64,000 nt of DNA. Source: a virus. Of this stretch, positions 3,472 through 60,657 are shown in pieces; the first letter of the stretch is position 1, and each line of letters begins with the position of its first letter. Location of the stretch: the IMG/VR virus record IMGVR_UViG_3300032304_001448, positions 1 through 64,000 of that record; one strand, 5' to 3'. The notes beneath the pieces were generated by a model, which was not told the origin of the DNA, ran no database searches, and was given only the letters and a program-made list of their open reading frames with translations. The translations under genes were made by a program, and so were the position numbers.

Positions 3472-4647
3472 ATGCCTTGCAATAATATTGAAGCTCTCTT
3501 CGTGGAACATGCCGGCCTTATCCGGAACAATGTCTCGAAGAACATCATCAACTCCGATTTCTACCTGAAGTATCTGCCGCGTGAGCAGTGGATGGACGGG
3601 CAAGGAACGGAATATAGTTACCCGATCTATGAGCGCACGCTCTCGTCCAGCCCCGTCACTTTCAATGCATGGGAGTCTTCGGACGGCGAAGCGGGTGGTC
3701 AGTGCCAGATTGCCGGTCAGTCGATCGACAATTTCGGCATCACCCTGCGTTCCACGAGCCTCAAAAAGGCCGCGCTGAACTCGCCCGACATCTGTCTGGA
3801 CGATCTTCAGTTCGCCTGGCAGGTCGAAGATCAGGTCAAAAACATCGTTCGCGTTCTTTCCGAGAACACGAAATGGGTTTGGACCAACGCTTATCAGGAC
3901 GAGTATATCGACGCTTGCGGCACCAAAATGGTCGCGGCCCCGAACCTCCCGTCCGGTAGTGCGACCTTCCCTGTCACACCCGCTACTTCTAAATTGACTT
4001 GGGGTATCCTTGAGGCGATTTACGAACAGTTGGGATACGCAGGCGGTGGCATCAATCCGTTCGCCCGTGTCGACGAGATGACTCCCATCTACGCGGCAGT
4101 CGGCGAGCGTTTCACGTTCCATGATCTCAAGCGTCAAGACGCCAACACCCGTGACGACTTCCGTTACGCTTTCGAAGGATCGGAGACCCAGTCCCCGATG
4201 CTCGGAGCGCCCGGTCTCTCCGGTGTGTATCGCGGCTATCGCTTCTTCACGATCGAGTTCCCGCCTCGCTACGACTTCGTCGGCGGTGCATGGGTTCGTC
4301 GTCAGCCGTTCTCCTCCACCCCGACTCGTAAGGGTGACAAGTGGGAAGTTTCGGATGCGTATAAGAACGCTCAATTCACGGACACCGCGATTTATCACGC
4401 TGACGTGTTGAAAGTTCTTGTGCCCAAGCCGAAAGCTGTCAGCCCGATGAAGTATAACCCCCAGTATAGCTGGACCGGTGAATTCGTCTGGCGGAACATC
4501 CCTGACCGCGACTGCAACGTCGATGGTAATACAGGGTTCTTCCGTGCGCTGTTCGCCTACGGCCCCAAGGTTGAGCGTCCTGACCTCGGCTTCGTGGTTC
4601 GCCACCGCCGCTGCCAGCGTGCCCTCGACCTGGTCGCTTGCTACTAA
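3472..4647 (+). CDS. Major capsid protein
   Basis: The 391-residue protein has the expected size and its own transcription signals: a terminator and possible promoter upstream, element A at 3437-3443, an AGGAG ribosome binding site about 13 bases before the ATG and a hairpin just after the stop. It directly follows the scaffold gene. It is rich in aromatic and polar residues with no enzymatic motif, as expected of an HK97-type shell protein. I see no convincing sequence signature by eye, so the assignment rests on context, length and signals. Several small modular virion genes follow. Confidence 0.75.
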   Translation: MPCNNIEALFVEHAGLIRNNVSKNIINSDFYLKYLPREQWMDGQGTEYSYPIYERTLSSSPVTFNAWESSDGEAGGQCQIAGQSIDNFGITLRSTSLKKAALNSPDICLDDLQFAWQVEDQVKNIVRVLSENTKWVWTNAYQDEYIDACGTKMVAAPNLPSGSATFPVTPATSKLTWGILEAIYEQLGYAGGGINPFARVDEMTPIYAAVGERFTFHDLKRQDANTRDDFRYAFEGSETQSPMLGAPGLSGVYRGYRFFTIEFPPRYDFVGGAWVRRQPFSSTPTRKGDKWEVSDAYKNAQFTDTAIYHADVLKVLVPKPKAVSPMKYNPQYSWTGEFVWRNIPDRDCNVDGNTGFFRALFAYGPKVERPDLGFVVRHRRCQRALDLVACY

Positions 4648-11975: not shown

Positions 11976-14900
11976 ATGGCGACTTACCTCGAAGCGCGTA
12001 ATCTGCTCGCACCCTACGTCGATAATGGCGTGGCGGTGACCGATACGACGCGCATCGACCAGCGGATCAACGAGGCCCAGCGCCGTTTGATCGACCACTA
12101 CAATTTCCTCTCCCGTCGCGAGGAGTTGGAAAAGTCGCCGCTCGTCTGGCAATCAGGTGGCACGACCGGCGTGCCGACCACGGGCGACCTCATCCTCGAC
12201 AACCTCGATGCGACCAAGACGATGATCTTGTCGCTCTGGCGCGAGGAGAACAACCAGTTGGAACTGGCCACCGCGCTGGAGACCAAAGCCAATTCCTATA
12301 TCGAGCGCAACTTGATGAATGAAGTCGAGCGGGCGCGTCGGACGACCTTTCAATCGCTGGCCACCTCGAACGGGCAGAACACCTTCGGCGGTATGACCGG
12401 ACGGATCGGGCTGGAGACGCTCGTCCAATATCGGCTCCCAGAAAGTCGGCTCAAGAGTTACATCAACCAGGCTTACCAGCAGGCGGTCGATCACTACAAT
12501 TTTGTCAGCCGCCGCGAAGACAAGGCCAAGACCAGCCTGACCTTTGCCGCGCTGACTTCGGATGCCGCGCAATTCGACTCCCTGCTTCCAGTCGAAGTGG
12601 TCCGGCTTCTTGCGCTTTCCATTATTGCCGCAGACAACGGGGCGGATGGTGCGGGGCTCAAGACACAAGCCTTGGAATTGATCGAACGCAATGTGACGGC
12701 CGACGTGGAGCGGACTCGGCGAGGACAGTCCGGTGAGGAAGGTCGTCTGCACAACGAGCTTCCGGACGGGGTAAAAATCCCGACAGCGCGGATGACGCAG
12801 TATCTTTCTCAAGCGGCTTCCGATGCTTCGCTGCACTACGACTTCTTGGCCCGGCGCGAGGACTACTCAACAGGGATCAAACCAAATCCATTCACCTTCG
12901 AAGTTCGCAAGAAGTTGGTCGAATCCTACACTGCCACGGCCAATGCCGCCGCCGAGGTCGCGGCTTCGCTCAAGCAGGAAGCCTTTGCCCTGATCGAGCG
13001 TGACTTGATGGATGATGTCGAAACGGTGCGTCGTGCCGCAGGCGGCACGGAAGGCCAGCTTCACAATGAATTGCCGGAAGGGGTGAAGATCCCGACGGCG
13101 CGTCTGACCACGTATCTCGCCCAGGCCCAGACCGAAGCCTCGGCCCATTATTCTTTCCTTTCCCGCCGTGAGGACTATGCGGGCGGCACGACACCGAGTC
13201 CTTTCCCCTATGAAGTCCGCAAGAAGTTGGTTGAGTCTTACTTGGCCACGACTAGCGGGGCGGTCGACGCGGCATCGGCTTTGAAACAAGAAGCCCTGGC
13301 CTTGGTCGAGCGCAACCTGATGCAGGAAATCGAAGCGGCCCGTCGGGTGGCCGGCGGCGAGGCGGGACGGCTGCACAACGAATTGCCGGAGGGTGTGAAG
13401 ATTCCGACCTCGCGGATGAACGAGTATCTGACCCAGTCGGCCGCGGACGCCGGAGCGCATTGGGATTTCTTGGCCCGACGTGAGGACTATTCCAGCGGCA
13501 CCAAGCCGAATCCTTTCCCTTTTGAGATCCGTGAAAAATTAGTCGAGTCATATATCGCGACGGCGGCGGCGGCTCCGGATGTGGCGGCATCCCTCAAGCA
13601 GGAGGCGTTTGCCATTATCGAACGAAACCTCATGGCCCAAGTCGAAGCGGCCCGCCGTGCGGCAGCAGGGGAAGAGGGTAAGCTGCACAATGAATTGCCG
13701 GAAGGTGTGAAAATCTCCACGGCACGGATGACAACTTACTTGGCCCAAGCGGCGACTGAAGCCGGAGCGCACTGGGATTTCTTGGCCCGCCGGGAAGATT
13801 ACTCCAGTGGGACCAAGCCGAATCCTTTCTCCTATGAAGTCCGCAAGTCCTTGGTCGAAAGTTATGTCGCCGGGGCGACCGGCGCGGTTGATGTGGCCAC
13901 AGCGAAAAAGCAGGAATCCTTGGCCGTCATCGAGCGCGATCTCATGGCGCAAGTCGAAGCCGCTCGCCGAGCCGCCGCAGGGGAAGAGGGTCGCCTGCAC
14001 AACGAACTGACCAATGGCGTGGCCATCTCGACCACCCGCCTGACGCAGCACTTGGCCCAAGCCGCGCTCGACGCCTCGGCCCATTACGACTTTCTTGCCC
14101 GCCGCGAAGATTACTTCGGCGGCACCAAGCCGAATCCTTTCCCGTTCGAGGTCCGCAAGAGGCTGGTCGAATCCTATGTCGCGGCGACCAATGCCGCTTC
14201 CGACGTGGCATCGGCACTCAAAGCCGAGGCTCAAGCGGTGATCGAGCGCGACCTCATGTTTGAGATTGAAGCAACCCGTCGCGGCGAAGCAGGGGAAGAA
14301 GGCCGTCTGCACAACGAACTTCCGGAAGGGGTGAAAGTTTCCACCTCCCGCTTGACCACCTATCTCAGCCAAGCCGCCACGGAGGCTGGCACTCACTGGG
14401 ACTTCTTGGCCCGCCGTGAGGATTATTCCAGTGGAACCAAACCCAATCCCTTTACCTATGAAGTGCGGAAAAAATACGTGGAGTCCTATGTCGCGTCCTC
14501 AACTGGTGCGATCGAAGCAGCGTCGGCCCTCAAAGCCGAAGCGCAAGCGTTGATCGAACGTGACCTGATGACTCAGGTCGAGGCGGCACGGCGGGCAGCA
14601 GCGGGTGATGAAGGCAAGTTGCACAACGAACTGCCCGACGGCGTCACCATCCCGACGGGTCGTCTGACGACTTACCTCGGCCAAGCCTCGACGGAAGTCG
14701 GAGCGCACCAAGCCTTTGTCCAGCGCCGTGAGGAATACAACGGCACCGTCCCCGCGCCGACTTACGAGCAGAAGAAATTGCTCGTCGAGGCATACCTTGC
14801 CACTTCGAAGGGGCAGTCGGACGTGGCCGCAGCCTTGAAGCAGCAAGCGGTCGCCTTGGTTGAGCGTGACGTGATGACTGAGATCGAAGGCACGCGCCGG

Positions 14901-15566
14901 GCGACCCGTGAGGCGTTACTTGCTTCAGCCAATGACACCTTCGGCTACCATTGGGGCCGGATCGGTCTTGAGCTTCCGGAGGCTTACAAGCTCTCGGACT
15001 CGGCGATCAAACGCATGGTCAACGCGGCCGAGGAGCAGTTGATGCTGGCCGGAAAGTGGGTCGGGACGGTGGCCGAGTATACGCTTTCGGTGAACGCCAC
15101 GGGCGAGTTCTTCCTGCCGGCCGAGGTGGAGACGATTCTTTTCATGTCCTTCGACGGAGATCCCAAGCCGGTCCATGACCGACTCAACGAGTGGATCAAA
15201 GGCGGCACGGGTTACCGGGAGACTGATGACAGTTGGCGTGAAGGCGCGGTCGACCGCGGCGAAGCGATCGATCCGGCCGATGGTTTCCTCAAGCGCAAAT
15301 ACTGGATTACCCTACCGAACGTGGTTCCGGTGGTCCGTATCCTGGCCAAACGCCGGTTTGTTCCCCATACGAGCAACTCGGAGAAGATGTATCTCCGCAA
15401 CTACCAAGCGGTCTACGAGGCGACCAAGGGGATCCTCCTCGGGGGCGAGCAAATCACCCCGCATATCGAGAAGGCCAAGGAGATGCTTTCCGGCCAGATC
15501 GCCCAACAGAACTTCACAGGGAACCGCGGAGCCGCGCACACCCGTCGCGTTCTTATGTTTCGGTGA
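11976..15566 (+). CDS. Adaptor-like tail protein with seven 104-residue tandem repeats
   Basis: The N-terminal unit (about residues 1-120, RINEAQRRLIDHYNFLSRREE) and the C-terminal 220 residues (AIKRMVNAAEEQLMLAGKW, FFLPAEVETILF, LNEWI) resemble T7 gp11-type tail adaptors. In between are two diverged units, then seven units of exactly 104 residues, each with LHNEL, (R/H)YDFLARREDY, KPNPF, VRKKLVESY and IERDLM. Adaptors are normally 200-250 residues; this protein has 1196. The expansion may build a helical ruler or extended collar around the neck. Strict period and high similarity point to unequal crossing-over or selection for a fixed length. Confidence 0.6.
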   Translation: MATYLEARNLLAPYVDNGVAVTDTTRIDQRINEAQRRLIDHYNFLSRREELEKSPLVWQSGGTTGVPTTGDLILDNLDATKTMILSLWREENNQLELATALETKANSYIERNLMNEVERARRTTFQSLATSNGQNTFGGMTGRIGLETLVQYRLPESRLKSYINQAYQQAVDHYNFVSRREDKAKTSLTFAALTSDAAQFDSLLPVEVVRLLALSIIAADNGADGAGLKTQALELIERNVTADVERTRRGQSGEEGRLHNELPDGVKIPTARMTQYLSQAASDASLHYDFLARREDYSTGIKPNPFTFEVRKKLVESYTATANAAAEVAASLKQEAFALIERDLMDDVETVRRAAGGTEGQLHNELPEGVKIPTARLTTYLAQAQTEASAHYSFLSRREDYAGGTTPSPFPYEVRKKLVESYLATTSGAVDAASALKQEALALVERNLMQEIEAARRVAGGEAGRLHNELPEGVKIPTSRMNEYLTQSAADAGAHWDFLARREDYSSGTKPNPFPFEIREKLVESYIATAAAAPDVAASLKQEAFAIIERNLMAQVEAARRAAAGEEGKLHNELPEGVKISTARMTTYLAQAATEAGAHWDFLARREDYSSGTKPNPFSYEVRKSLVESYVAGATGAVDVATAKKQESLAVIERDLMAQVEAARRAAAGEEGRLHNELTNGVAISTTRLTQHLAQAALDASAHYDFLARREDYFGGTKPNPFPFEVRKRLVESYVAATNAASDVASALKAEAQAVIERDLMFEIEATRRGEAGEEGRLHNELPEGVKVSTSRLTTYLSQAATEAGTHWDFLARREDYSSGTKPNPFTYEVRKKYVESYVASSTGAIEAASALKAEAQALIERDLMTQVEAARRAAAGDEGKLHNELPDGVTIPTGRLTTYLGQASTEVGAHQAFVQRREEYNGTVPAPTYEQKKLLVEAYLATSKGQSDVAAALKQQAVALVERDVMTEIEGTRRATREALLASANDTFGYHWGRIGLELPEAYKLSDSAIKRMVNAAEEQLMLAGKWVGTVAEYTLSVNATGEFFLPAEVETILFMSFDGDPKPVHDRLNEWIKGGTGYRETDDSWREGAVDRGEAIDPADGFLKRKYWITLPNVVPVVRILAKRRFVPHTSNSEKMYLRNYQAVYEATKGILLGGEQITPHIEKAKEMLSGQIAQQNFTGNRGAAHTRRVLMFR
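12747..14930 (+). repeat. Seven in-frame 312-bp tandem repeats
   Basis: The LHNEL codons begin at 12747, 13059, 13371, 13683, 13995, 14307 and 14619, a constant spacing of 312 bases. Units keep amino-acid similarity while using different synonymous codons, so the array is not freshly duplicated and its length seems conserved. Two more diverged units lie upstream. Confidence 0.9.
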
Positions 15567-15594: not shown

Positions 15595-15936
15595 ATGACC
15601 GCCCTACAGATTGCCCGCGATTGGCACCGGAAATACGTCTCGGAGCGGACGTTCGAAATCGCGCTGGAGTATTATCTGCTTCACGGGCTCGTGCATGTGA
15701 CGCCGAACGTCTTTCTGTGCGCGGAGGAATTACATTGGAACGGGGAGAAAGCTGAAATGGATAAAGAACCGAACGCTTGGTTTGTCTATATGGCTGCGGC
15801 CACCGGCACGGAAAATCCGGTGCGCGAGATGGTCCGTGTCGCCCCGAATCCACAACCTTTTGTCATTTGGTCGCGCAACAATAACGGGTTGCGTGTCTAT
15901 CGCCACGAACACCTAGCTAGAAAGGTGGGTCTCTAA
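15595..15936 (+). CDS. Hypothetical protein (113 aa)
   Basis: It follows element A (15572-15578); an out-of-frame ATG at 15588 is rejected because only the ATG at 15595 opens this frame. The product has an N-terminal helix, a YYLLHG turn and a central AEMDKEPNAWFVYMAAATG segment. It resembles small soluble phage proteins without known fold. It overlaps the next gene at TAATG, so it is translated with the internal-virion proteins. Confidence 0.6.
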   Translation: MTALQIARDWHRKYVSERTFEIALEYYLLHGLVHVTPNVFLCAEELHWNGEKAEMDKEPNAWFVYMAAATGTENPVREMVRVAPNPQPFVIWSRNNNGLRVYRHEHLARKVGL

Positions 15937-18338
15937 TGGGCGGTGGAGGTGGAGGAGGTGGAGGCGGAAACCGTGAAGGTGAAGTCACGGCGAGAATGAA
16001 CCGCTATGTCGCGCAGACACAAGACGACGCCAATAGGCTGATTTCCGCCGTTACGAATCTCGGCAACGAGCTAAAGAGTGACGCACAAAATCTAAGCCAA
16101 GATTACCTCAAAGGAATTTCTGGAGAGGAAAAAACGGCATTAAACCGCCTTGAGCGGGCGAACAACTGGCTCTCCGATGAGACCAATCGCATGAGCGACA
16201 CGTTCGCCAGCGAGATGCGTCAAGCTCTTGAAGATCTTGATGTCGCGGCGAAAACGCTCAACCTCGGACAGCGTGATGATATCGTCGCACAGATCGGCGA
16301 ATACAAAAAGCAAGCCGACCAGATCGACGCCGGATACCAATCTTCGATCAACACGGCGCTCGGCCGCATGGAGACCGACGCAGGAAAAGCCGTCGGCGAT
16401 TTCCGTGCCGAGTCTTTGTCTGAAACAGACCGCTTCGAGCGCGAGGCTCGTGGAGAGGTTTCCCGCTTCGATGCCGACACCCGTTCGCTCGGAGATATCT
16501 TCCGCTCTGAGACAACCGGAGCGACCGATCGCTTCCGCGCCGATGGCTTGGCCGAAGCGAACCAGACGCAGCGCGACAGCCTAGCGTCGACGGGTCGTTT
16601 CGCCGATGCTTCCCGTGGAGTGGCCGGTGACTTCGACCGGCGCACGACGGACGCGACCGACAGCTTCCGCTCCGATTCGACCAGCCTTGGTGACCGCTAC
16701 TTGGAATCCATCACCAATTCGATGGATGAATACCGCGGGCTGCTCGACCGTGCGGAGAACCTCACACCGGAGCGACTGAACATCTTCACCCAAGCGGCTG
16801 ACTTTATTTCCAATGCCGCAGTCGATACCCGTGCGCGGATGCTGGCCTCGGCCGACCCCCGTGCCTTGGAGCTTTCGGCCGTCGCCGACGAGAACGCCGC
16901 TGCCATGATGAGCGGTCGGATCTCGGCCGACACCCAAGCCAATCTGGCCCGCTCCTCCGCGATGCGTGCCTTGCAGGGTGGGTTCGGTGCCTCCAGTGAA
17001 ATGGGACGCGGCTTGTCGGCACGCGACTTGGGCCTGACTTCCCTGGACCTCCAACAACGTGGAACGCAGGACTTCGAGCGTCAGCGGATGCTCAACTACA
17101 ATACCCGTGTAGCCGGACTTCAGACCGACGCGACCGGTCTCCTCCGAGACAACCAGCAGCTTCTTTCCCAACGTGCAAATACCACGCTTCAGGCTGGACT
17201 CGGCACGGCAGAGAGTGATCGCAACCAGCGACAGGCTGCACTCGGCACGGAACTGGCTTCACGGACCGGAGCCGCCCAGCAACTTCTTTCCACGCAACAG
17301 GGCTCACTCGACCGCCAACTGGCCAGCGAACTCGACACGCTGAATCGTGGTTCGGTCGCTCGTCAAGGTGTATTCGGCACCGAACTCACGGCCCGCACCG
17401 GAGCCTCGCAACAGCTTTACAACAATCAGCAGACCGCCGCGACCAACCGCCTTAATGCGAGCTTGGATACGCTCGGCACTGGACTGAACCAACGGCAGAA
17501 CATCTTCGACACCGCGCTCGGGGCGCGTCTGGCCACGATCGACACCCGCACCAATGCCGAACTGGGAACGGCAGGCGATCTCTACAACTCGGGCCGTGAA
17601 CGTGCCCGCGATGTCCTCGGTTTGAACATGGCCAACACCAGCACGTTTGCCGATCTGGAACGTAGTCGGGCGCAACAGCGGTTCAACACTGGCGCGGGAT
17701 TGTCGGCACGCTTGTTCGATGTGGGCATGAGCACGGCCGGATCCTTGTATGGAACCAACGTCAATGCGGCTTCGAATTTCTATACCAATAACGTGAACTC
17801 GCTAGGCAGCGTGTTTAACACGCGGATGGGGGCTTCCGAAAAGGCAGTCAGTATGCGGGACGTAGCCGAGCGCCAGAAACTCGCCAATCTGACGCAGGTT
17901 CGATCCAACGCGGCAACCGCCATCGAAAGTGCAGCCGAAGCCGACTACCAATACCGGATGCAGCAGCAAGCGGCAAACAACTCAATGTGGGGTAACATCA
18001 TCGGGACGGGTGCTACGGTTCTTGGAGGAGTTGCCGGGGGTATACTTGGTTCTGCCGGTGGGCCGATGGGGACTATGGCGGGCGCTTCTTTAGGTTCCTC
18101 GCTAGGAGGAATGGCCGGACAAGCTGCGGCTGGAAGTCTCGGATATGGCGGTCAATACGGAGCCATGATGGGGACCAACCAAGGGATGTCCTCAGTCGGT
18201 ATGTTTTCGTCGATGCTCGGAAGTAGAAGCACCAGCGGAATGAGCCGTTCGCAGATGTCGTCGGCAACTATGCCTGGAACAACCGGAACGTATCAGTCGT
18301 GGGCGGGCGGCTACATTCCAAAAGCAACAGCAGCCTAA
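15936..18338 (+). CDS. Internal virion protein with poly-glycine start and long coiled coils
   Basis: The 800-residue protein begins with M followed by ten glycines, a start common in podophage internal or DNA-ejection proteins. Residues about 15-600 are helical with many regularly spaced D-R-F and T-D-R steps (ATDRFRADG, ATDSFRSDS). The C-terminal 120 residues contain a glycine/alanine hydrophobic stretch (IGTGATVLGGVAGGILG). A long coiled region plus a membrane-active tail fits a T7 gp14/gp15-like ejection component that lines a channel through the envelope. It comes just before two smaller proteins and the giant polyvalent protein. Confidence 0.6.
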   Translation: MGGGGGGGGGGNREGEVTARMNRYVAQTQDDANRLISAVTNLGNELKSDAQNLSQDYLKGISGEEKTALNRLERANNWLSDETNRMSDTFASEMRQALEDLDVAAKTLNLGQRDDIVAQIGEYKKQADQIDAGYQSSINTALGRMETDAGKAVGDFRAESLSETDRFEREARGEVSRFDADTRSLGDIFRSETTGATDRFRADGLAEANQTQRDSLASTGRFADASRGVAGDFDRRTTDATDSFRSDSTSLGDRYLESITNSMDEYRGLLDRAENLTPERLNIFTQAADFISNAAVDTRARMLASADPRALELSAVADENAAAMMSGRISADTQANLARSSAMRALQGGFGASSEMGRGLSARDLGLTSLDLQQRGTQDFERQRMLNYNTRVAGLQTDATGLLRDNQQLLSQRANTTLQAGLGTAESDRNQRQAALGTELASRTGAAQQLLSTQQGSLDRQLASELDTLNRGSVARQGVFGTELTARTGASQQLYNNQQTAATNRLNASLDTLGTGLNQRQNIFDTALGARLATIDTRTNAELGTAGDLYNSGRERARDVLGLNMANTSTFADLERSRAQQRFNTGAGLSARLFDVGMSTAGSLYGTNVNAASNFYTNNVNSLGSVFNTRMGASEKAVSMRDVAERQKLANLTQVRSNAATAIESAAEADYQYRMQQQAANNSMWGNIIGTGATVLGGVAGGILGSAGGPMGTMAGASLGSSLGGMAGQAAAGSLGYGGQYGAMMGTNQGMSSVGMFSSMLGSRSTSGMSRSQMSSATMPGTTGTYQSWAGGYIPKATAA

Positions 18339-20263: not shown

Positions 20264-23200
20264 ATGACTTCGGAGCAGCGTCGGCAAGAGAGTGAGGCTT
20301 ACTGGTTTCGGTCGCCAGCCGCCCGCAACGTGCTGGAAGATTTCGGGGCAGCCCGTGATGACGAAGAGGAGACGATCATAACTGAGGAAGGTCAGGAGCC
20401 GGAGCCCGTGACCCTGACGCCGGAGACTAGTGTCGAAGACGTGGTCCGCAACGAACCCGAGCCGCCGCCCCGAGAATTTACCGATGTCTATGAGTTCTTC
20501 GCTTCGCAACAGGGCAAGGATTTAACCCAAGAGCGGTATGAAGAGCGGGGGATTGAGGGGTATGAAGTCGGGGAGTTGTTCCCGCGGGAGCAACGTGGGC
20601 TAGGTGGTGAAGCTGGGGCGGGATTTGCCCGTGGTGTCGACCAGACACAGGCGATGGGATTCGGGTTGCTCGGGCTCATGGGTGAGGCGTTGGGGGTCGA
20701 GGGGCTCTCGGACTTGGGGGTCGATGGCTACATCCGCAACATGGAAGAGGCGGCAAAGAACCAAGCCTCGGTGCAGGATCCTTTCGAGGAAATCGGCGGG
20801 GCAGGAGACGCGGCTCGCTACGCGACCGGAATCATTTTCGAACAGCTTCCTCAGTTGGCTCTCTCCCTGGTCGGCGGCGGCATAGGCGGATACACCGCGA
20901 GATCCCTTGCCAGCAAAGTCGTCGCCAATGAGATTGGCCGACGCATCAAGGCAGGCGCAGCCAAAGAGGTCGCCGAAAGTGAAGTGGCGCAAATGGTGGC
21001 TGAACGTATGCTGCGTGGGGCGGGAACCAAAATTGTCGAATCGGCGACGAAGTCCGGAGCTTTTGGCGGGGCCTATGTCGCCAACGTCGGGCAGATTGCG
21101 GGTGGTAGTTTTGGCGAGATCGAGCAGGAGACGGGTCTTCGTGATCCGGTCAACGCGCTCGGCTTTGCTCTTCTCGGCGGTGCGCTGGAGACGGGAGCCG
21201 AGGCCCTCCTCGCCGCGCCGATCGCTGGCAAACTGATGCGGGGCACAACAGCCCCGATGACTGGAGCCACGGAACGGGCATTAGGATTCAACGTCGGTCC
21301 GGTTGTTGGAGCAGCCGGTCGCTTGGCGGGAACCTCCGCCGCAGAAGGCGGAACGGAATACGGTCAGACTTTCACGGAACAAGCAGCGGTCGCATCGGCT
21401 GACCCCAATCGCACGCTGGCCGAAGTAGCGTTTACCCCGGAAGCCGAACGCGAGCGTCAGATTTCGGCAGCAGCAGGCGTCGTCGCTGGCGGCGGTATCG
21501 GTGCCGTGAGCCAAGCAGCAAGCTACTTGATTCCTGAAACAAGTCGCAGGGTTCAAGAGAAGTTGCAGCAAAGGCGAGGGGAGCAGGCTCCCGCTGATAT
21601 CCCAGGAGATCCTAAAACCGGCCGGCCGTTGAAGGTCCTCGAAGGGAATTGGTCGGAGCCGAAGGTTGTTGGGGGTTTTGATTTTCGCCGTAATGACGAA
21701 GGCAAGGTCGCGATCTTTAACCCTGATCCGCAAAAGTTTGCTGGGTTGCCAAGATTCTCAACGCCGCAAGGCGATGTCTTCTCACTGCTTGATGGTGTCG
21801 AGTATCTCAATCTCCCGACCCGATCGGAAAAAGCTCTGGCACAGAAAGCCCTTGGGTTCTTCGATGACGATGAGGTCGGATCGACGCAGGTAAAACGCAC
21901 CCCGGTCCAGAAACCCAAACCGCGCACCCCGGCCACGGAATCGGTGCTCGATGATGGTCCGGACATGACGCCGGCTGGTCAGGCGGTTGGTTCCAATGTG
22001 CGGTTCAATGGCTACGAGGGGTCACTGGCCCAGGATGGTGCGAGATTTTTGCTGCGGGCCAATGATGGCACGGAGGTCGAAGTTCCTGCGGAGAGTGAAG
22101 TCGAGATCGTTGCGGCCCCTGCGCTGACTCGTCTAACTGCTACCTCGATCCCGGCAGTGCAGACTCCGCCGGTCGAACAACCGACACCGATGCCCGATCT
22201 CGCAACGATGGGCGCGGAGGAAATTTCCAAAGCGGCACTGGCCCGTCCTGAAGTCTCGATCGTGGACCAAGCAGCGGAGACCGCTGAGACACTGGACCGC
22301 AATGCGGTGACCTTGCTGCGAGATGCGCGGACCACGCTGGAGAGTTCGATCGGGGAGATCGAGCGCCGGGACCTGGCACCGGAAGCCAAGAGCACGCTGA
22401 CCGAGCCGCTGTATCAAAAGCTCGTTCAGGTCGAAGACACTTTAAGCAAAGCGCCGGCCGAGGCGACGGCACTCGATGCGGAGATTCAGAAGAGCAAGCA
22501 GACGATCGCCGATACCAAAGTCGAGCAGGTCAAAGTCGCACAGCAAACGGTCAACCGTCCTCCGGATCAGTCGCGCCAATTTGTCGAGAGCCTGCAACCC
22601 AAGGACAAGGTGACGGTCTACCTCTCGGACGAGAAAGCCGATGACTCGCTTTCGTTCGGTGCGACTTTCGAAGCCCGCCGTCCGAATGGCAACGTGGTCG
22701 TGGTGACCGAGCCGGATGCCGAGGGCAACCAAGAGAAGCTCGTCTTTACCCCGCAGCAATACAACCGGCTCGGGATGTTCAAGCAGCCCACACCGAAGCA
22801 GTCACCAGTCGATGTTGCCGTTAATTCGGTGCTCGGACCGAAGCCGACCAAGGCGAAAGCCGAGCGCGTCTTTGGGACACCTTACCAAGAAGGTCAGCCG
22901 CAAGAGGCGTTCTTCGACGATGGTCTCTACGCCAACCCCGGCAAGACGAACAAGGTGCCGGGCGAGGTGCGCTACTTCGACAAGGAAGGTGAGCCTGGGG
23001 TCAAAGAGGTCGTAAACTTCGGCAAGTGGCAGGGCAACTCCCGGGGCACTCTCTTCACCACAGTGCGTCAGATGAACCTCGGACTCGATGTCCCGGTGCC
23101 GGATGACCAGCTTCAGAATCTTCCCGAAGGTGTGCAAGTGGAGCAGCGCACGATGAAGAACGGTCAGACCGCCAACGTCGTGACTAAGGTCGTCTACAAC

Positions 23201-26200
23201 GGCAACACCTATCGCCGCGGGGATGCTGCCTATGACTTTTCGGTGAACGGGGAGAACACCGGCCCGGGGGGTTTCGACAATATCTATTTCAACTCACCCG
23301 AGCGTTTGCTTCGCAGTGAGCGGGCTCGCAAGGGCAAGCAGACGCAGAAAGAGAAGGCGGGCAAAACTGTCGGCTCGGTGCAGGCAAAATTGGAAAGCCT
23401 CGACGAGGCCGACCAATTCTTTGTCGGCGATGCACGGGCACGGGCTGCACGGTTCATTGATCGCCGAAGCGACCTCGATCCCGAGGCCAAGGCGATGGCT
23501 TCCGACGAAGCCGATGCCTCGATCATCGAACAGGTGGCCGGCCGCGATAAGAAGGGTGTGCCTCCGGTGCGCGATCTCGCGCTCTTCAAAAACTTCAACA
23601 GCCGGATGCTCGATATCTTCGAGAGCAATCAGGAGAACGAGACGGGAGCCGATACCGGCCGCGATGTGCAGGAGGCAGCGCGTCAGATCACCGAGGAACT
23701 CGTGGCCTCGGGACAGACCGCAGCACAGGCATCGGCCGCGGTCGAGCCGATCGTGAAGCGTTGGCAGAGCTACGGAGATTTCAGTCCGATCAAGACGGCG
23801 ATGACCAAGGCGCAGAGCGCCAAGAAATCGGCGGTCCGGACCGGACGTAACCAGCGGGCGGCAGAAGCCGATCTCGCCGCGGGGACGACCGGAGATGCGC
23901 GGGCCCAACAGACTCCGGCTGAGAGGTTTGCCGAGCGGACCAGCGATGCCGCGATGGACGGCCGGGAGCGTCTTGGCCGTGTTGTCGGTGAGGATCGCGA
24001 CCTGCTTGATGCCTATTGGGCTGAAGAAGAATTGAGCGAAAGTGACCAGCAGCGTGTCGAAGATCTGCTAGAGTATATCCAAGGCAACAAGACTTATGAG
24101 CAAATCAACCAAGCAACCGAACAAGGTTCAGCAATACTTTCTAGAGAACCCAGAGATGGCGACAATCTTCGCCGGGATGCGGTTGCAGAAGGACGTGCCG
24201 GAGGACTTGCGGAAAGCCGTGGGCGAGGACGCAATCAAGCGGGCGCTGGACGGGGACGTAACCGTGTGGGCCGAACTGATGGTGGCCAAGCCGGAACTGT
24301 TCCGGGAGCGGCCCCTGTCGCTGGTGGAAGACCTGGCTTGGGAGGAACTCCTGACCAACGGAACGCCAGCACCGCGAGGCGAGCCTTCGTCGGCTCCTTC
24401 ATCGGCGACCGCGGTCTAGTTGCCGGCCTCTCCGAGGCAGTCGTCGAGAAGATCTACCAAGCAGTCTCGACCACCCTCGACGCTCTCGCCGCGACCAAGG
24501 GTCGCCGCGTTGTTGCCGCGACCGAGGCGAACATGGCCGACCTGATGGGTCGATCAGTTGAAGAACTCGTCGCCGGATACCAAGAGGAATTTTCCAGTTA
24601 CATGGCCAACCGTGAGCGGATCGATGCGATCCGCCGCAATGCCCAAGAGGCCGTGCGTAGCCGGATCTTCGAAGGTCCGAAGGCCGCGCTTGAGTTCATG
24701 GCTCAAGATGGCGATCGACCGGCGTTCATGCGGATGGTTGCCAAGGTCGTCTTGAGCCAGGGTCAGCGGTTCGGTCTCAACATTGATGACATCGCGATGC
24801 AGGTCGGTATCTTCCGCCGCAACTTCGCGACCCAGCCTTTGCGCGGTGAAGAAGTGCGGGCTCGGGTGCAGGAAGTTCAAGGCGAGGAAGGTGAGGGTGT
24901 CTTCGAGGTGACCACTCCGGGTGGCGTGGAGACGTATGCTTTCGGCGGTGAGTCGGGGCGCACCCGCAAACAAGCCGGCAAAGAAGCCCGGGCACGGGCG
25001 TTCGATCTTGTGACCGGACAGACGCGGACCTCTTGGGCCGGTGTGCTCGGAGTCGACGAGAACGCGACTTCGCCAGTCGGCCGCTACTCGGTCGTGCTCA
25101 ACCTCGATAACTGGCATGAGGCCGATGACATCGGGCTGACCATGTTGCACGAGATCGCCCATGTGTTCTCCAAAACAAAGTTCGCCGGACTGGAAAAACT
25201 CAACACCGTCGAGAAGGCCGCGATCAAAGGAATCGAAGCCTTCCGTGTGCGAATGCTCAAGGCTGTCGCTCGGACCAATGGACTCGAAGTCCCCGCGGGT
25301 AATAACCCCACAAACCTTGCCAAGTTGAGCCGTCAGGTCGATGACCTCTCCAACCCGAACGTGGTCGGAGCCGATGCCGATCGGCGCTTTGCCTATCTGG
25401 TTAATGCCGAGGAGACCGCCCGCGGGCTCATGGAGAGCCCGGAATTTCTCAAGCTCGCCCTGCAACTCGGGCTCGGTAAAGCCAAGACCAGGGGCAAGAA
25501 GACCTCGCTGTCCGGACCCGTGGCCGAGGCTTGGGGCGACATCGTCGATCTCAACTCTGGCAAAAAGACCGCGGCAACAAGCCCGCTGGCCAACGCTTTC
25601 CAAGATGCGTGGGACGCAACCTTCGGTGCTCTCGAAGGCACGACCGAGGGCTATGCCAAACCTCCGATCGGAGCGAACCCCTTGGCCCAGGATCTCGCCG
25701 CCCTCGACCAAGCAACCAATTTTATTGAAGACCAGATCATCGCCCGGGGATTGACTGGCACGACCGCAGAACGTGAAGCATTGCTGCAAGAGTTCATGGC
25801 TGCACGGAACATGGAACGGGGTGCAGAGGCAGTGGTCGAGGAAGCGGACGCCGATGTCGATACGCTGGCTGATCCGGTGACGATGAGTCGGGCAATTTCT
25901 AACGAAAGCCGCGAGGCTTTGTCTAACCAAGGAGCAACCAATGACAGAAGAAACCAACCTGCCTTACAAGCGACCACCCCAGGGATGGGATCCGCAAGTG
26001 GAGGCAACCAAGTTCAAAGGCAAGCAGTTCGGCCCAACGCCGAGCCAAACCCCTTCGTCCAAGAAGGAGTCAGTGCCTACAATGCCCGTTACGGGCTCGG
26101 CGAAGTAGTCCGCGGGCACTACGCCCCAGTCGACGAACAACGTGCTCGCAGCATAGCTGCGGCTTATGACGCACTCCCGGTCCTCGATGAAGGTCGGGAG

Positions 26201-29200
26201 ACCCAGGACGCCTACCGGCAACTGGGCTTCGAGATCCAGCAGCAGTGGGACTATGCCATCAATACGATGGGAGTCACCTTCGAGCCGTGGACAACCGAGG
26301 GGCAACCTTACGCCAATTCCCGGGAGATGGTGCGCGATGTCCGGGACAACAAACACTTGTGGTTTTTCACGGGCGGTGAACCGCACCCGCTTCTCAACCA
26401 GCCCGATGCCGACGGGCTGACGATGAATGACAAGCTGCGTGCGATCCACGATCTCTTCGGTCACGCAGCCGAGGACTACCAGTTCGGAGCCCGCGGCGAG
26501 GAGAACGCCTGGATCAAGCACAGCCAGATGTTCACCCCGCTGGCCCAGAGGGCACTGACCACCGAGACCCGAGGGCAGAATTCATGGGTCAACTATGGGG
26601 CTCACAACTACGCGGCTGACGGAACACGGATCAAGGTTCCTGCTTCCGAGCGTCCTTTTGCCACGCAGAAGGTGGCCCTTCTCCCCGAGGAGTTCATGGA
26701 TTGGCGGGGTGCCTTGGCTGCGGACACTGTGACGGAGAGTCGGGCGGTGGCGATGGAGTTTGTCTCCCCTAATGAACGGGAGAATCTGACATTTGCACAG
26801 GCCCGGGCGGCGTTGACTGGAACGCAGCAAGAGCAACTCAGGGCGTTTGCCAGTAGGATTCATACGGTTTTCGGGCTAGATCAAAGCCGAGTCAGTGACG
26901 CTATCGGAGATTGGGCAGACGGCGCGGAGCCCACGACGGTAACCGAGCACTACGCTCCGGGACTGACGTATGAGGACGTAGAGGTAATGGCCGCGCTCAA
27001 GGGGGCACTGAGAAACCAGAAGCAAGTAATTCCATTCCTGAGAGACTCAGAAGGCACTTCTAGACTTTATGATGTCTTTATCCCAAATCAGACGGCAGAC
27101 CAATCCCGTGGTATTTTAGAGACAGCCGGGATCCAATTCCGGACTTTGATTGAACAAAACGGAGGGACTCGTGTCTTAATTTTTGATAAGAACGGCTCGC
27201 TCTTTTTGCCCGTCAGAGAGTTAGTCTCAAGTAATAACTATGAAACAAAATATTACAAAGGAACCGGCAACTTCCTCGGCAACGAAGATTCCCGTGAAGC
27301 CGGGCGAGCCGCTTACGCTCGAACAGTGGGATCGGCTATTGCAAGAAGCCGGTTGGCGGGACGCGACACTGGACGGCCCGACAGCGTTCGAGCTACCCGG
27401 CTATCCGAACTCGCAGCCGAAGCAGGACTGATTCTACCAAATGAAGACCTCAACGAAAGCCGCGCCGTCGGTGAAAGCCCGAATCTCATCTACCAAGATG
27501 CCGAAGGAAACCTTCGAGGACGACCGCGAACGGGAAGCCCTGAAGGGAACATCGGAAGGGCTTTACTACGCCTCCAAGAATCCTCCAACGAGGGCCGAGA
27601 TTTTGGAGCAGGCGAGACGTTCCGGTTTCGTGCCGACACTGGCGGGCAAGCCGATCAGGCGCTAGAGCAACAGAGAAGGCAGCAAGCGGGCGCAGGGTTT
27701 CGCCGCTTCGTCGAGAACTTGGAGGCTGACGGCCTCGTCCTCGATCCGGAATCTTTCGAGAACACGGTCATCGAAGGGCGAGACCGTATTGGTGACGGGT
27801 CCGAGCATCAGGTCCACATGGACCGCCCGACCAACCGCGTCATTAAATACACGAACCCGGATGTAACCGGCAGCGGCATCGTCGGGCAGTCGATCAATGT
27901 TTTTGACTACCTCACGAATCTCAATGCCCACAAAAAACTTTTCAACATCGACATTCGCCTTGAGGGACTTGTCGATCTTGGGGAGCCCTTCCCACGAATC
28001 GTCACCTCGCAACCCTACATTAAGGGAAGAGATTCAACGATCCCCGAAATCAACAGTTACTTCCGCGATGAGTTAAAGTTCACGAAGCAGGACGATGGAT
28101 CCTGGGTGCGCGTTCGTAATGGTGAGGTTCAACGTGTTTGGGATGTCGTTCCAGGAAACGTAAAGACCGTCAAGATCGGGAAAAAGAAAGTCGTGGTCCC
28201 ATTCGACGTTCAAATTTCCATACAGTCGAACGCAGCTAGTGGCGCGGTGGACCAACCGAACGAATCCCGAGCCCGCGGGCGAGTCTGGCGTCCGGTAACC
28301 AGTCGCACTCCGACGGGCGGCACAATCAGCCGCGGCGGCATGTTCGCCGTCGATGAGCTTCTCGATAAGAGAGCCGGTGATCTCTACCGCTCAAGCCGGA
28401 TGGCGATCAAAGTCGATGTGTCGAAGATCCAAGACCTCTCCCGGGTGTTGGAGCGTCAGATTAAAAATTTCTACAAAGGTGAGACACCGCCCCTGGAGAC
28501 GATCAACACGGCGCTCGGTAACTTGGACAACCCGCTCACCGAGCAGCAGATCGGCGAGATTGAAGATTTGCGGGCTCGCGGGCTAACCAATCAAGCCGCC
28601 AAGAAGCGTGACCAATACATCCGCGACAACCGCCGCAACTTTAAGCAGAACAAACAGACGCAAGCCTTGGCCCAGTTGCCGGAAGAACTGGCCGAGACGA
28701 TCCGCGAGATGTCTTCGCATATCGAGTCGCTTTCGCGTGAGTTGCCTAACGAAGGTTTGGTTAGTGGCGACTTGGCGATCACAGTTGATGAGGCGCTCGG
28801 CACCTACCTTAACCGTAGCTATGCGATCTTCGATGATCCGCAGTGGACTGACCGTGTGCGAAAAGATGCCAAGGTCATGGACGCGGCCCGTAAGTATATC
28901 CGCAACAGCTTGGCTAAAGCGAAAGCCCAAGACCTGATCGCTGATGCTGCCGACGAAGGCCGCACACTTTCCCGTATCGACGCCGAAGCACTCGCCAACG
29001 ATTCAGTGATCGACGACGAGGTCGAGAACCTCCTCGAAGGCTATCTCGCGATCGGCGCAGAGGCCCCGACGATCGAAGTGCTCTCCGGCCGCATCCCCGG
29101 GCAGAAGAATCTCAGCATGTTCAACCAGCGCGGCAACATCGCGCCGGAGATCCAAGCCCTCTGGGGACGTTACGAAGACCCGAGCGTCAACTATGCCAAG

Positions 29201-43056: not shown

Positions 43057-43133
43057 GGTTCTTGTTTCAGGGTTCTTGTTTCAGGGTTCTTGTTTCAGGG
43101 TTCTTGTTTCAGGGTTCAGGGTTCAGGGTTCAG
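43057..43133 (-). repeat. Tandem array of 14-bp and 7-bp repeats
   Basis: Four perfect copies of GGTTCTTGTTTCAG (43057-43112, plus strand) are followed by three perfect copies of GGTTCAG (43113-43133). The short unit is the long unit without TTGTTTC, and the array lies between a stop codon and element B. It could be a binding-site array, a replication iteron or a slippage product. Confidence 0.9.
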
Positions 43134-43357
43134 GCAATTTTAGCCGCAATCTCGGGAAGAATTTCGCGCCAATGGTTCGCGATCCAAGCCGCCGCAATAT
43201 CAGCCGCCGCAATCTCTTGTTCGTGAGTTTCGGCTTTATTCAAATGGTCCCAACAACCGAAAACTGCCGCCGAATTGAATAGCCGATCGGCTTCAAAGTC
43301 ATCGCAAGAGAGGTCAAAAGGGAGAGCCGAATTGAGGATGTATTGATTGAGTTTCAT
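43130..43357 (-). CDS. Small helical protein (75 aa)
   Basis: ATG 43357 follows element B (43372-43383) with the usual GAACACT spacing. The product (MKLNQYILNSALPFDLSCDD ... IAAAWIANHWREILPEIA) is soluble and acidic. Its stop lies in the first repeat of the array downstream. Confidence 0.55.
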   Translation of the reverse strand: MKLNQYILNSALPFDLSCDDFEADRLFNSAAVFGCWDHLNKAETHEQEIAAADIAAAWIANHWREILPEIAAKIA

Positions 43358-57398: not shown

Positions 57399-58625
57399 TC
57401 ACCACTTTATTAAAGAGGACAAGCCATTTTCTTCGGCATAAGCTCGCACTGATATTGGGTTGATATTAAACCACTCGTCGGCTTCCGCCGTGGTTACGAG
57501 GCCGCGGTAGTGCTTTTGCAGGGTCTTCGGGCTGTTACCTGCGAGGTAGGAGGTCTCGTTGGCGTTGCGGTATTTGGCATAGTGGTAGGTGCAGAACGAG
57601 TGCCGGAGCACATTGTTCTTCCACTCAACCCCGACGGCTGAGAGACGGGCCTTGTTCCGGCTCAGTGCCGCCACCCGGCGGTGGCTGGTCAGGCGACCCT
57701 CTTCGGGGATCTCGGCGACTGCGAGCCAGGCTTTCATCTGGTCGGTGATGTCCAGAGTCCGGCGAGCCGCAGTCTTGGCGATCGTCTCGTCGATGACCGC
57801 ATGGTGCTCATCGAACTTGAGTTGAGCCGCCGTCATCCGCTGGAACTCTGCCCGACGCGAACCGGCGAATGCCATCGTCGCGATGTAGGGGATCTCGTCC
57901 GGCTTGGCGATCAAGAGGAGGTGCATAAGCTCCCAAGGCTTGAAGGTCGGCACCACTCTGCGGTCGAGGGAGGGGAGAGCCAGGTCCGCGGTGATGGAGT
58001 CGGCGTCCTTACCGAGGTAGCCTTTTTTCTTGGCGAACTTTTCCATCATCTGCCAATGGCGCACCAGATTGCGGTAAGTGAATGGCGACCACTCGCCCTT
58101 GCTGATGTAGCCCTGGAACTCCTCATGGGTCACACTGTTAAGTTGTCGGTGTCCGATCCAGCGCCGGATGTGGTTTGAATCGGTCGAGAGCCCGTTGAGG
58201 TAGGACTTCGAGAGCCCCTTCAATTTCTGTCGCTCCCGCATCGCTTCGACGAATTCGACCGACACTTCTTTTACTGTCCTCCGACCAGCCCCGATCGGGT
58301 TCTTGGCTACGTATTGTTCCACGGCTTCAAGCAGGCGACTTTTGCCGCCCGCTTTGCGTAAGCACTCGCGAAGGAATAGAGTATCCTCCGGATGAATTGT
58401 AGTCTTCTCGCCGAGGGCGCTGGCCAAGTCAGTGACGATCCTTTGAGCCTCCTCTATCGCTTTGTCGCGTTTGGCAAAGACGCGCCTCATCGTCTTCCGC
58501 CCTACCTTCCAGCGGATGAGGAACTGGCGGTAAGCTCCATTGCGGACCTTGGCGATGTGCGCCTTGGCCCCATTGAGCCGGACGACAACGCCCTCGTTTC
58601 GGGTGTCAGTAATTTCGATTTTCAT
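57399..58625 (-). CDS. Tyrosine recombinase (phage integrase)
   Basis: The 408-residue protein has an N-terminal core-binding domain (about 95-190) and a catalytic domain. Arg257/258 (GSRRAEF) is the first catalytic Arg; box II reads N338-V-L-R341-H342 instead of H-x-x-R-H; the second position is N364 (AGNSPK) in place of H/W; the nucleophile is Tyr373 (KHYRGLV). I know this N-type pattern from recombinases of Verrucomicrobiota and related groups. It should integrate the phage at a host site. Attachment sites cannot be fixed from the window alone. Confidence 0.85.
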   Translation of the reverse strand: MKIEITDTRNEGVVVRLNGAKAHIAKVRNGAYRQFLIRWKVGRKTMRRVFAKRDKAIEEAQRIVTDLASALGEKTTIHPEDTLFLRECLRKAGGKSRLLEAVEQYVAKNPIGAGRRTVKEVSVEFVEAMRERQKLKGLSKSYLNGLSTDSNHIRRWIGHRQLNSVTHEEFQGYISKGEWSPFTYRNLVRHWQMMEKFAKKKGYLGKDADSITADLALPSLDRRVVPTFKPWELMHLLLIAKPDEIPYIATMAFAGSRRAEFQRMTAAQLKFDEHHAVIDETIAKTAARRTLDITDQMKAWLAVAEIPEEGRLTSHRRVAALSRNKARLSAVGVEWKNNVLRHSFCTYHYAKYRNANETSYLAGNSPKTLQKHYRGLVTTAEADEWFNINPISVRAYAEENGLSSLIKW

Positions 58626-58884: not shown

Positions 58885-60657
58885 ATGACCCCGATTTTTG
58901 CCTCTGATGCGACGACTCCTCCTGTTGGTTACCGACTGAAATACGGGGTCTATTTTGTGCCCGGAACGGCCGATTGGGCGATCGAGCTTTACTGCTTCGT
59001 GAACCGAGATCGGCGGTCGCCGGAGATGTTGCCGATCGAAGAGCACTTCAAAAACGCGGCCCAGATTTTCTTCAATAAGAAAACCGAGAACTTTATCTGG
59101 CACCCTTGGGCCGATGACATGTTGTATGAGTGCTGTCACAATAAGTTCGTCGGTTTCGCAGGCTGCGGCTCAAGCGGCAAGTCGGAATTCATGGCCATCT
59201 GGGCTCTCCTGAATTGGATGGCTGCGCCGTTCCACACGCTCTCATTGGTCACGTCCACAAGCATTCGTGACGCCAAGAAGCGGGTCTGGGGAGCCATCCA
59301 GCGTTACTGGCCGTGCATCAAGCCCGTGGCTCCAGGGAAGCTCGCCGATACTCCGACTCCGGCGATCTACACGATCCGGAACGGCGAGCGGATGGAGCAG
59401 GCGGGGGTGTATTTGATTCCGGCCGAGGCGAAAAAGACCTCGGAAGTTACCGGCAAAATGAGAGGCATGAAGGCTCCGCGGGTCATCGTCGCGGCGGACG
59501 AGTTGAGTGAGTTGGGTCATGCCTTCCTCGACACGGCGATGTCGAACCTTTCGAACAACCCGTTTCTCCACATTTGTGCCGCGGCAAACCCTGTCTCTTA
59601 CTACGACCCCTTCGGCCGCTTCGTCGAGCCGACGAACGGGTGGGGGAGCATCACGGTCAATGATGAGAAGTGGGAGACGAAGCTGGGTGGGGTCTGTCTG
59701 CACCTCGATGCCCTCAAGAATCCGAACTACTTGGCCGGCGAAAACAAATGGCCGATCCAAAAATGGGAGAAGATCGATGAGGCGCGTGAACGACTCGGTG
59801 AGGACAACCCGATCTTCTGGCGTGACTATCGGGGGTTCTGGCCACCCCAAGCGGTCAGCAAAGCGATCTACAGCGAGGCCGAAATCATCCGCTTCCAAGC
59901 CGACCAGAAGCCCGTGTGGAGGGGCCGCGTCGAACGAATTGTCGGCATCGACCCCTCCTTTGTGAGCGGCGGGGATAGGTGTGTCATTTATTTGGGCTCG
60001 TTTGGCCAGAATAAAGATGGGGTCGATCAGGTTTCGTTCGATGAGTTCCACTACCTCGACGAGGAGGCGAGCAACCCCGAGCCGCGCACCTTCCAGATCG
60101 CCAAGAAGATCAAAGACATCGTGGTCAAAGCTGGGGTGCCGTGGCGCAACATCGGGGTCGACGTGACGGGCGGCGGTGTGCCCTTCTGCGATGCGATGGC
60201 CACGGTCTGCGGGTCCAACGAGTTTCTGCGGGTCCACTTCGGCGGGGCTCCCTCGGGGCGCTCACTCTCGGCTTACGATGCGACTGCGGCCCAGGATAAG
60301 TATGTGAACCGCGTCACCGAGCTTTGGTTCGGGGCGAAGGAGTTTTTGCAGAATAATCAACTAAGAGGGATCGGTCCGGATCTTGCTCGGGAGATGACCA
60401 GCCGGAACTACGACACGCGCAAATCCGGATCGATGAAGGTCGTCGTCGAGAGTAAGACCGACATGAAAGCCAGGATCGGCCGATCGCCCGACGTAGCCGA
60501 CGCGGCCTTCGTCATGCTCGATGTTGTCCGCGAGCGGTTCGGGCTTCGTCCTCCCCAAGAGACTGGTGGGAGTCGCCGCGGCATGAGCAGTTGGAAGTCG
60601 ACGATGACTTCGAAGTATGCCCCGCGCCGGTCAGGTCAGTTGCTCCAGTCTTTTTGA
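58885..60657 (+). CDS. Terminase large subunit
   Basis: The 590-residue protein has Walker A at 93-100 (GCGSSGKS), Walker B with catalytic acid at 201-206 (IVAADE), and the C-terminal RNase H-like nuclease acids in GIDPSF (D356), GVDVTGG (D426) and DVADAAF (near 555). It pumps DNA into the prohead and cuts the concatemer. The domain order and length fit phage terminases. The start ATG was chosen as the first in the open frame after the A+T-rich gap. The small subunit candidate is distant. Confidence 0.85.
   Translation: MTPIFASDATTPPVGYRLKYGVYFVPGTADWAIELYCFVNRDRRSPEMLPIEEHFKNAAQIFFNKKTENFIWHPWADDMLYECCHNKFVGFAGCGSSGKSEFMAIWALLNWMAAPFHTLSLVTSTSIRDAKKRVWGAIQRYWPCIKPVAPGKLADTPTPAIYTIRNGERMEQAGVYLIPAEAKKTSEVTGKMRGMKAPRVIVAADELSELGHAFLDTAMSNLSNNPFLHICAAANPVSYYDPFGRFVEPTNGWGSITVNDEKWETKLGGVCLHLDALKNPNYLAGENKWPIQKWEKIDEARERLGEDNPIFWRDYRGFWPPQAVSKAIYSEAEIIRFQADQKPVWRGRVERIVGIDPSFVSGGDRCVIYLGSFGQNKDGVDQVSFDEFHYLDEEASNPEPRTFQIAKKIKDIVVKAGVPWRNIGVDVTGGGVPFCDAMATVCGSNEFLRVHFGGAPSGRSLSAYDATAAQDKYVNRVTELWFGAKEFLQNNQLRGIGPDLAREMTSRNYDTRKSGSMKVVVESKTDMKARIGRSPDVADAAFVMLDVVRERFGLRPPQETGGSRRGMSSWKSTMTSKYAPRRSGQLLQSF

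Follow-up and report, generated by a model that had tools for sequence, protein, structure and literature searches.

The window, a stretch of 64,000 nucleotides of viral DNA (positions 1 to 64,000 of IMG/VR virus record IMGVR_UViG_3300032304_001448), encodes a protein whose C-terminal 215 residues are, by modelling, well supported as a podovirus head-to-tail adaptor fold at ∼10% sequence identity, and whose upstream repeats are very probably the adaptor's helix bundle minus its fibre-dock insertion. On balance we favour the view that the adaptor grew as its own helix-bundle domain was duplicated in tandem and that its units are stacked rings, in a covalent version of the crAss-like stack; ring formation, axial stacking, polarity and the effect on tail length are what we infer in this picture. 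Adaptors and the multi-ring barrels of crAss phages are already known; a chain in which such bundles are fused in countable number, with relatives forming a natural copy series, was not met with in the papers searched. The protein is organised as follows.

11976..15566, + strand: multi-domain adaptor, whole gene, 1196 aa (open reading frame; relatives)
11976..12365, + strand: first diverged helical unit, A1 (residues 1-130; hit of the unit profile to residues 17-126, 43 bits)
12366..12746, + strand: diverged helical unit A2, residues 131-257 (unit profile; hhalign to the C-terminal domain)
12747..13058, + strand: strict unit B1, 104 aa (unit spacing, unit profile)
13059..13370, + strand: strict unit B2, 104 aa (unit spacing, unit profile, three-unit model)
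13371..13682, + strand: strict unit B3, 104 aa (unit spacing, unit profile, three-unit model)
13683..13994, + strand: strict unit B4, 104 aa (unit spacing, unit profile, three-unit model)
13995..14306, + strand: strict unit B5, 104 aa (unit spacing, unit profile)
14307..14618, + strand: strict unit B6 (104 aa) in position c2, with positional orthologs in relatives
14619..14918, + strand: unit B7, position c1, ∼2 residues shorter, positional ortholog across relatives
14919..15563, + strand: C-terminal adaptor domain, residues 982-1196 (L028 AlphaFold model, VIA-align matches to adaptors)
15051..15398, + strand: fibre-dock-like beta insertion between adaptor helices 2 and 3 (register with L028 residues 505-620; domain name after PMC6702177)
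15516..15563, + strand: conserved C-terminal tail TGNRGAAHTRRVLMFR, candidate portal-embracing segment (alignment A1)

The adaptor fold was recognised in an AlphaFold model of a 675-aa ortholog (L028), made on an alignment of 24 sequences and with a mean pLDDT of 85, of which residues 455-675 served as the query for a VIA-align fold search. The best match was the SU10 adaptor (7z47_A, Z 10.9, 190 aligned residues, 10% identity), followed by the adaptors of cyanophage A4 (Z 10.4), Moo19 (9.8), GP4 (9.8), Pa223 (9.7) and KHP30 (9.5) and, at lower rank, by those of N4 (8.1), DEV (7.4), crAss001 (7qoj_F, 7.3) and T7 (gp11, 8e4g_0, 6.9); crAss001 7qog_B (Z 6.7) and 5mu4_A (Z 5.6) were matched as well. 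The domain, for which a four-helix up-down bundle is predicted, consistently matched more than 15 adaptor structures, and we accept the fold because the match list is uniform and stands above the unrelated rows. In the L028 model, strands at residues 511-605 lie between helices 487-504 and 622-634, and the repeat units lack them. The predicted domain order, i.e., a helix bundle, a beta insertion between helices 2 and 3 and a conserved C-terminal tail, is that of the T7 and SU10 adaptors (PMC6702177; PMC9509320). The tail itself is nearly invariant in alignment A1 and of low confidence in the L028 model. When the whole protein and a profile of its C-terminus were compared by sequence with PHROGs, Pfam, the PDB and the phage collection, no adaptor was matched; Pfam DUF3615 and DUF3199 came barely over the cut-offs as sums over the repeats and were dropped, since no single stretch passes. 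A preliminary description had likened both ends of the protein to T7 gp11, and the fold match bears this out for the C-terminal 215 residues but not for the N-terminal end, which consists of two diverged helical units.

Each repeat unit is predicted to contain a short, a long, a 15-residue and again a long helix (residues 4-18, 24-48, 77-91 and 95-128 for A1, in the numbering of the L028 model), and these four helices recur in the adaptor domain, where the beta domain separates the second from the third. A1, A2 and the B units match one another with hhalign probabilities of 98-99%. A2 furthermore aligns with the adaptor domain (E 1.9e-6, 34% identity, 77 columns) at a score of 43.5, compared with 19.9 for the best of 100 column shuffles, and its motif NTFGG..GRIGLE, also present in the adaptor domain, falls on DTFGYHWGRIGLE of the latter. 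The B units alone gave no match to the adaptor-domain profile, so that their link to the adaptor goes via A2 and the helix order. Among structures, the best matches of a single unit of the L028 model (residues 355-450) were neck proteins, namely T4 gp13 (Z 6.8, rmsd 3.3, 81 aligned residues) and the neck protein of phage 812 (Z 6.7), which is no more than suggestive, being weak for a helical bundle, and could reflect a common helical arrangement. The earlier picture, in which an adaptor had received an inserted repeat array, thus gives way to one in which the repeats themselves are probably helix bundles of the adaptor type that lack the fibre-dock beta insertion, the nine domains ahead of the C-terminal adaptor probably keeping the helix bundle only.

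Structure prediction of consecutive units, proposed in the preliminary description, yielded a helical three-unit model of high confidence (pLDDT 92.7, pTM 0.74), from which it follows that the array is rather rigid. In a fold search of the PDB with these three units no adaptor was matched, nor was there a convincing match to a known repeat family of the unrelated kind that had been considered; the best hit was a designed helical repeat (Z 5.1), and the match list does not exclude adaptors.

The spacing of the array is as regular as originally described. Seven unit starts, marked by LHNEL at residues 258, 362, 466, 570, 674, 778 and 882, lie exactly 104 aa (312 bp) apart in all six intervals. 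The last copy is shorter by about two residues (∼102). TRF detected the 312-bp array independently (score 774). The two diverged units reported beside it were both recovered upstream by the unit profile (residues 17-126 and 153-257, 43-50 bits). Independent contigs contain the array as well, several of them with 97% identity and likewise seven copies, so that it is no assembly artefact. The six full units share 63-79% identity in protein and 65-73% in DNA, and the copies are old, as synonymous sites of different units have diverged almost to saturation (pS 0.64-0.87), with a dN of 0.17-0.26. Orthologous arrays have a dN/dS of 0.08-0.11, and the repeats are under strong purifying selection. Charged residues are enriched at invariant positions of the unit: they occupy 14 of these 27 positions but 14 of the 74 others (Fisher p 0.002). 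The proposal of old repeats under length selection holds within the window's clade, where, besides the saturation, all 67 intervals in 20 arrays measure 104 residues, but not beyond it, as spacings of 102-114 in sister clades, whose loops accept insertions, indicate that unit length is not absolutely fixed.

Scans of IMG/VR yielded more than 40 contigs with related loci, many loci coming from the same contigs, so that loci do not equal independent viruses. Copy number, which the preliminary description had singled out for comparison among related phages, varies in discrete steps: complete proteins of the main clade measure ∼675, 780, 884, 988, 1092 or 1196 aa, within a few residues, corresponding to a ladder of two to seven strict units behind the two diverged ones in steps of 104 aa. 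Domain totals in close relatives are accordingly 5, 6, 7, 8, 9 and 10, with the window and L034 both at ten (2+7+1). A tree built from the last unit and the adaptor domain (25 rows) requires at least 13 changes in copy number, a figure to be read as a rough guide because many forks are weakly supported. Two relatives with almost identical C-termini have six and five copies (L009 and L014), and in L027 one pair of units must be recent, being 99.4% identical. The last two B units are positional orthologs across relatives and the middle units are not.

Other relatives depart from the single long chain. In L058:7746-10633, L059:8058-10633, L088:14569-17266 and L107 (the contig of L035) the array is divided over three consecutive genes, and each gene break separates helix 3 of a unit from its helix 4, in the same loop that carries insertions in L034 and L054. 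This loop is probably exposed, and the three gene products may complete one another's helix bundles. The L093-type relatives (four contigs, one virus lineage) bear on the question of whether the same tail occurs without repeats, in that they have no strict unit at all and yet keep the two diverged ones. Their adaptor domain lies in two ORFs of the same frame (L093:15075-16322; L154 from 7605 onward), the first of which (416 aa) comprises both diverged units and the beginning of the adaptor domain, while the second starts with a beta-rich insertion and continues with the end of that domain. Together with the spacing in sister clades, these relatives indicate that the strict unit length is a feature of the clade and that the wider lineage can do without the strict repeats. 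In more distant relatives found by their capsid protein (48-56%) no recognisable adaptor was detected in the records concerned; in L106, L109, L113 and L116, which belong to this range, downstream genes carry collagen-like GPTG repeats and there is no adaptor of the window's type. In BFVD a few large proteins were matched (A0A516L4P3, A0A516LTA4, A0A516M5L4, A0A516LKR8), which may carry similar arrays.

The closest precedent for multiplied adaptors is crAss001, whose barrel is a stack of five rings, each a dodecamer, built from paralogous adaptor-fold proteins encoded by four genes (R1-R4) and whose tail is longer than that of podoviruses with one ring (PMC10172136). As with R1-R4, adaptor-fold paralogs are probably multiplied here within one virus, there giving a longer tail barrel, but up to ten domains are joined in one chain in place of four separate genes, the repeats lack the beta domain whereas each crAss001 ring protein has a beta-sandwich, and a copy-number ladder runs between relatives. 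Because of the one fused chain and the repeats without beta domain, we do not file the protein as a crAss ring-protein system, even if the array possibly works like one. With T7 gp11 and the KP32 tail tubular protein A (PMC6702177) the C-terminal domain shares the four-helix bundle, the beta insertion between helices 2 and 3 and the C-terminal tail, but the T7 protein, of ∼196 aa, has just this one domain and builds one ring, without any array. The adaptor gp11 of SU10, the best structural match, is likewise a single-domain protein, and the tail of that phage is lengthened by rearrangement of nozzle and fibres and not by adaptor repeats (PMC9509320). The adaptors of P22 (gp4), Sf6 (gp7), HK97 and SPP1 are helix bundles without a fibre-dock domain (PMC6702177), and the repeat units are like these in lacking the dock, while their structural match, weak for a helical bundle, is to T4 gp13 and the neck protein of phage 812; all of these proteins, however, have one bundle per chain. 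In agreement with the earlier statement that no adaptor with such an array is known, a limited literature search revealed no published case of tandem adaptor arrays.

How such a chain might build a neck can be outlined by analogy with T7, where the adaptor ring docks on the portal via its C-terminal segment and neighbouring parts, a helix bundle lines the channel, the beta domain forms the fibre dock and the contacts within the ring are mainly electrostatic (PMC6702177). The canonical C-terminal domain would sit on the portal as a dodecameric ring, as in T7 gp11, and every unit position would form one extra ring of the same symmetry. These extra rings would be lined up on the axis of the tail from the portal-bound ring towards the nozzle, a single polypeptide passing through every ring of the stack. 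The ends would be fixed, formed by A1-A2 on the N-terminal side and by the last two B units, and the middle units would be interchangeable spacers gained and lost through recombination, so that unit number would set the length of the neck in discrete steps. Extrapolated from crAss001, in which five rings span about 23 nm, the gain per ring would be roughly 3-4.6 nm. It is an attractive, if still rather tentative, extension that the array acts as a neck-length ladder with up to ten stacked adaptor-type rings per chain, one 312-bp unit equalling one ring, and that in the three-gene stacks the products complement one another's bundles.

In favour of stacking we would cite the ring-forming ancestry, the rigid array, the fixed ends with a variable middle and the charged invariant positions, much of which would fit outward-pointing arms too. 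In the latter arrangement, which we hold to be less likely but worth serious attention, the C-terminal domain alone forms the ring and twelve rigid arrays project from it as spokes, a collar or whiskers, their outer ends, A1-A2, attaching to a fibre, the capsid or the host surface. The confident single-chain model (pTM 0.74) would suit this arrangement, a projecting arm easily tolerates a change of length, and copy number indeed varies without a matching change in the neighbouring tail genes. Against stacked rings also speak the absence from the units of the beta domain that the crAss001 rings possess, the lack of a direct match of the B units to the adaptor profile and of the three-unit model to any adaptor, and a next large protein whose length does not go with copy number. 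On the other hand, the units derive from a ring-forming domain, their invariant charged positions are kept with no obvious need for them in a monomeric arm, and stacked adaptor rings have a precedent in crAss001. Alternatively, recombination might simply add and remove folding units that are tolerated, under neutral or weak selection and with no definite structural role. Labile copy number (at least 13 changes on 25 rows), relatives without strict copies and the lack of a detectable coupling to the next large protein are all compatible with such an expansion, which is nevertheless improbable given the dN/dS of 0.08-0.11, the near-saturated synonymous sites between units and a 104-residue spacing kept in 67 of 67 intervals within the clade.

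We attach very little probability to a ruler, in which an ejection or tape-measure-like protein would have a length tuned to the number of repeats. A first look does suggest that longer arrays are often accompanied by a longer next large protein, but a coupling of copy number to its length is contradicted by pairs of equal length with different copy numbers: this protein measures 735, 735 and 734 aa beside seven, six and five copies (L004, L009 and L014), and ∼800 aa beside both seven (window, 800 aa) and four (L016, 801 aa). The giant virion protein, too, is 86% identical to that of the window (best segment) in both L005, with seven copies, and L021, with three. Least credible of all is a single-chain ring, suggested by the ten domains of the window and L034, in which ten adaptor-like domains would close one pseudo-symmetric ring in place of twelve subunits; totals of five to ten domains in close relatives contradict it, since they cannot all close the same ring.

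A tape-measure protein determines how long the tail of a long-tailed phage becomes. Short-tailed phages have been seen with one adaptor ring, the five-ring barrel of crAss001 being the exception (PMC10172136). If the stacked-ring architecture is correct, a fused, countable adaptor array represents another way to change tail length, through the number of repeats, and the naturally occurring range of two to seven strict copies makes the neck-length idea directly testable by electron microscopy. The coexistence of fused, split and short forms in one lineage furthermore offers a concrete path from a single adaptor ring to a multi-ring barrel.

The virus apparently belongs to a short-tailed, uncultured lineage. 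The adaptor gene may belong to a head-tail gene cluster: there is a terminase-like match, its syntenic neighbours are conserved, and candidates for the portal, the capsid protein and the nozzle were assigned by position, size and conservation; profile searches for these three returned no specific match, and none was clearly recognised. As the terminase, capsid and portal candidates (58885-60657, 3472-4647 and L060:2494-4815) had no tblastn match in 50,697 phage records, the lineage is far from cultured phages, and no cultured member was found in the collections searched. A search for the host in genome_contigs gave only a spurious match of 75 bp. At 15936-18338 a protein of 800 aa is encoded which has a glycine-rich start, is coiled-coil-like and has the look of an ejection protein; its syntenic counterparts range from ∼440 to 800 aa, independently of adaptor copy number. 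Further downstream (20264-31186) a giant protein of 3640 aa matches phrog_22602 (virion structural protein) and phrog_3170. An integrase-like gene on the minus strand (57399-58625) hints at a temperate or formerly temperate phage, and a 14-bp unit, GGTTCTTGTTTCAG, is repeated in tandem in about five copies at 43057-43134.
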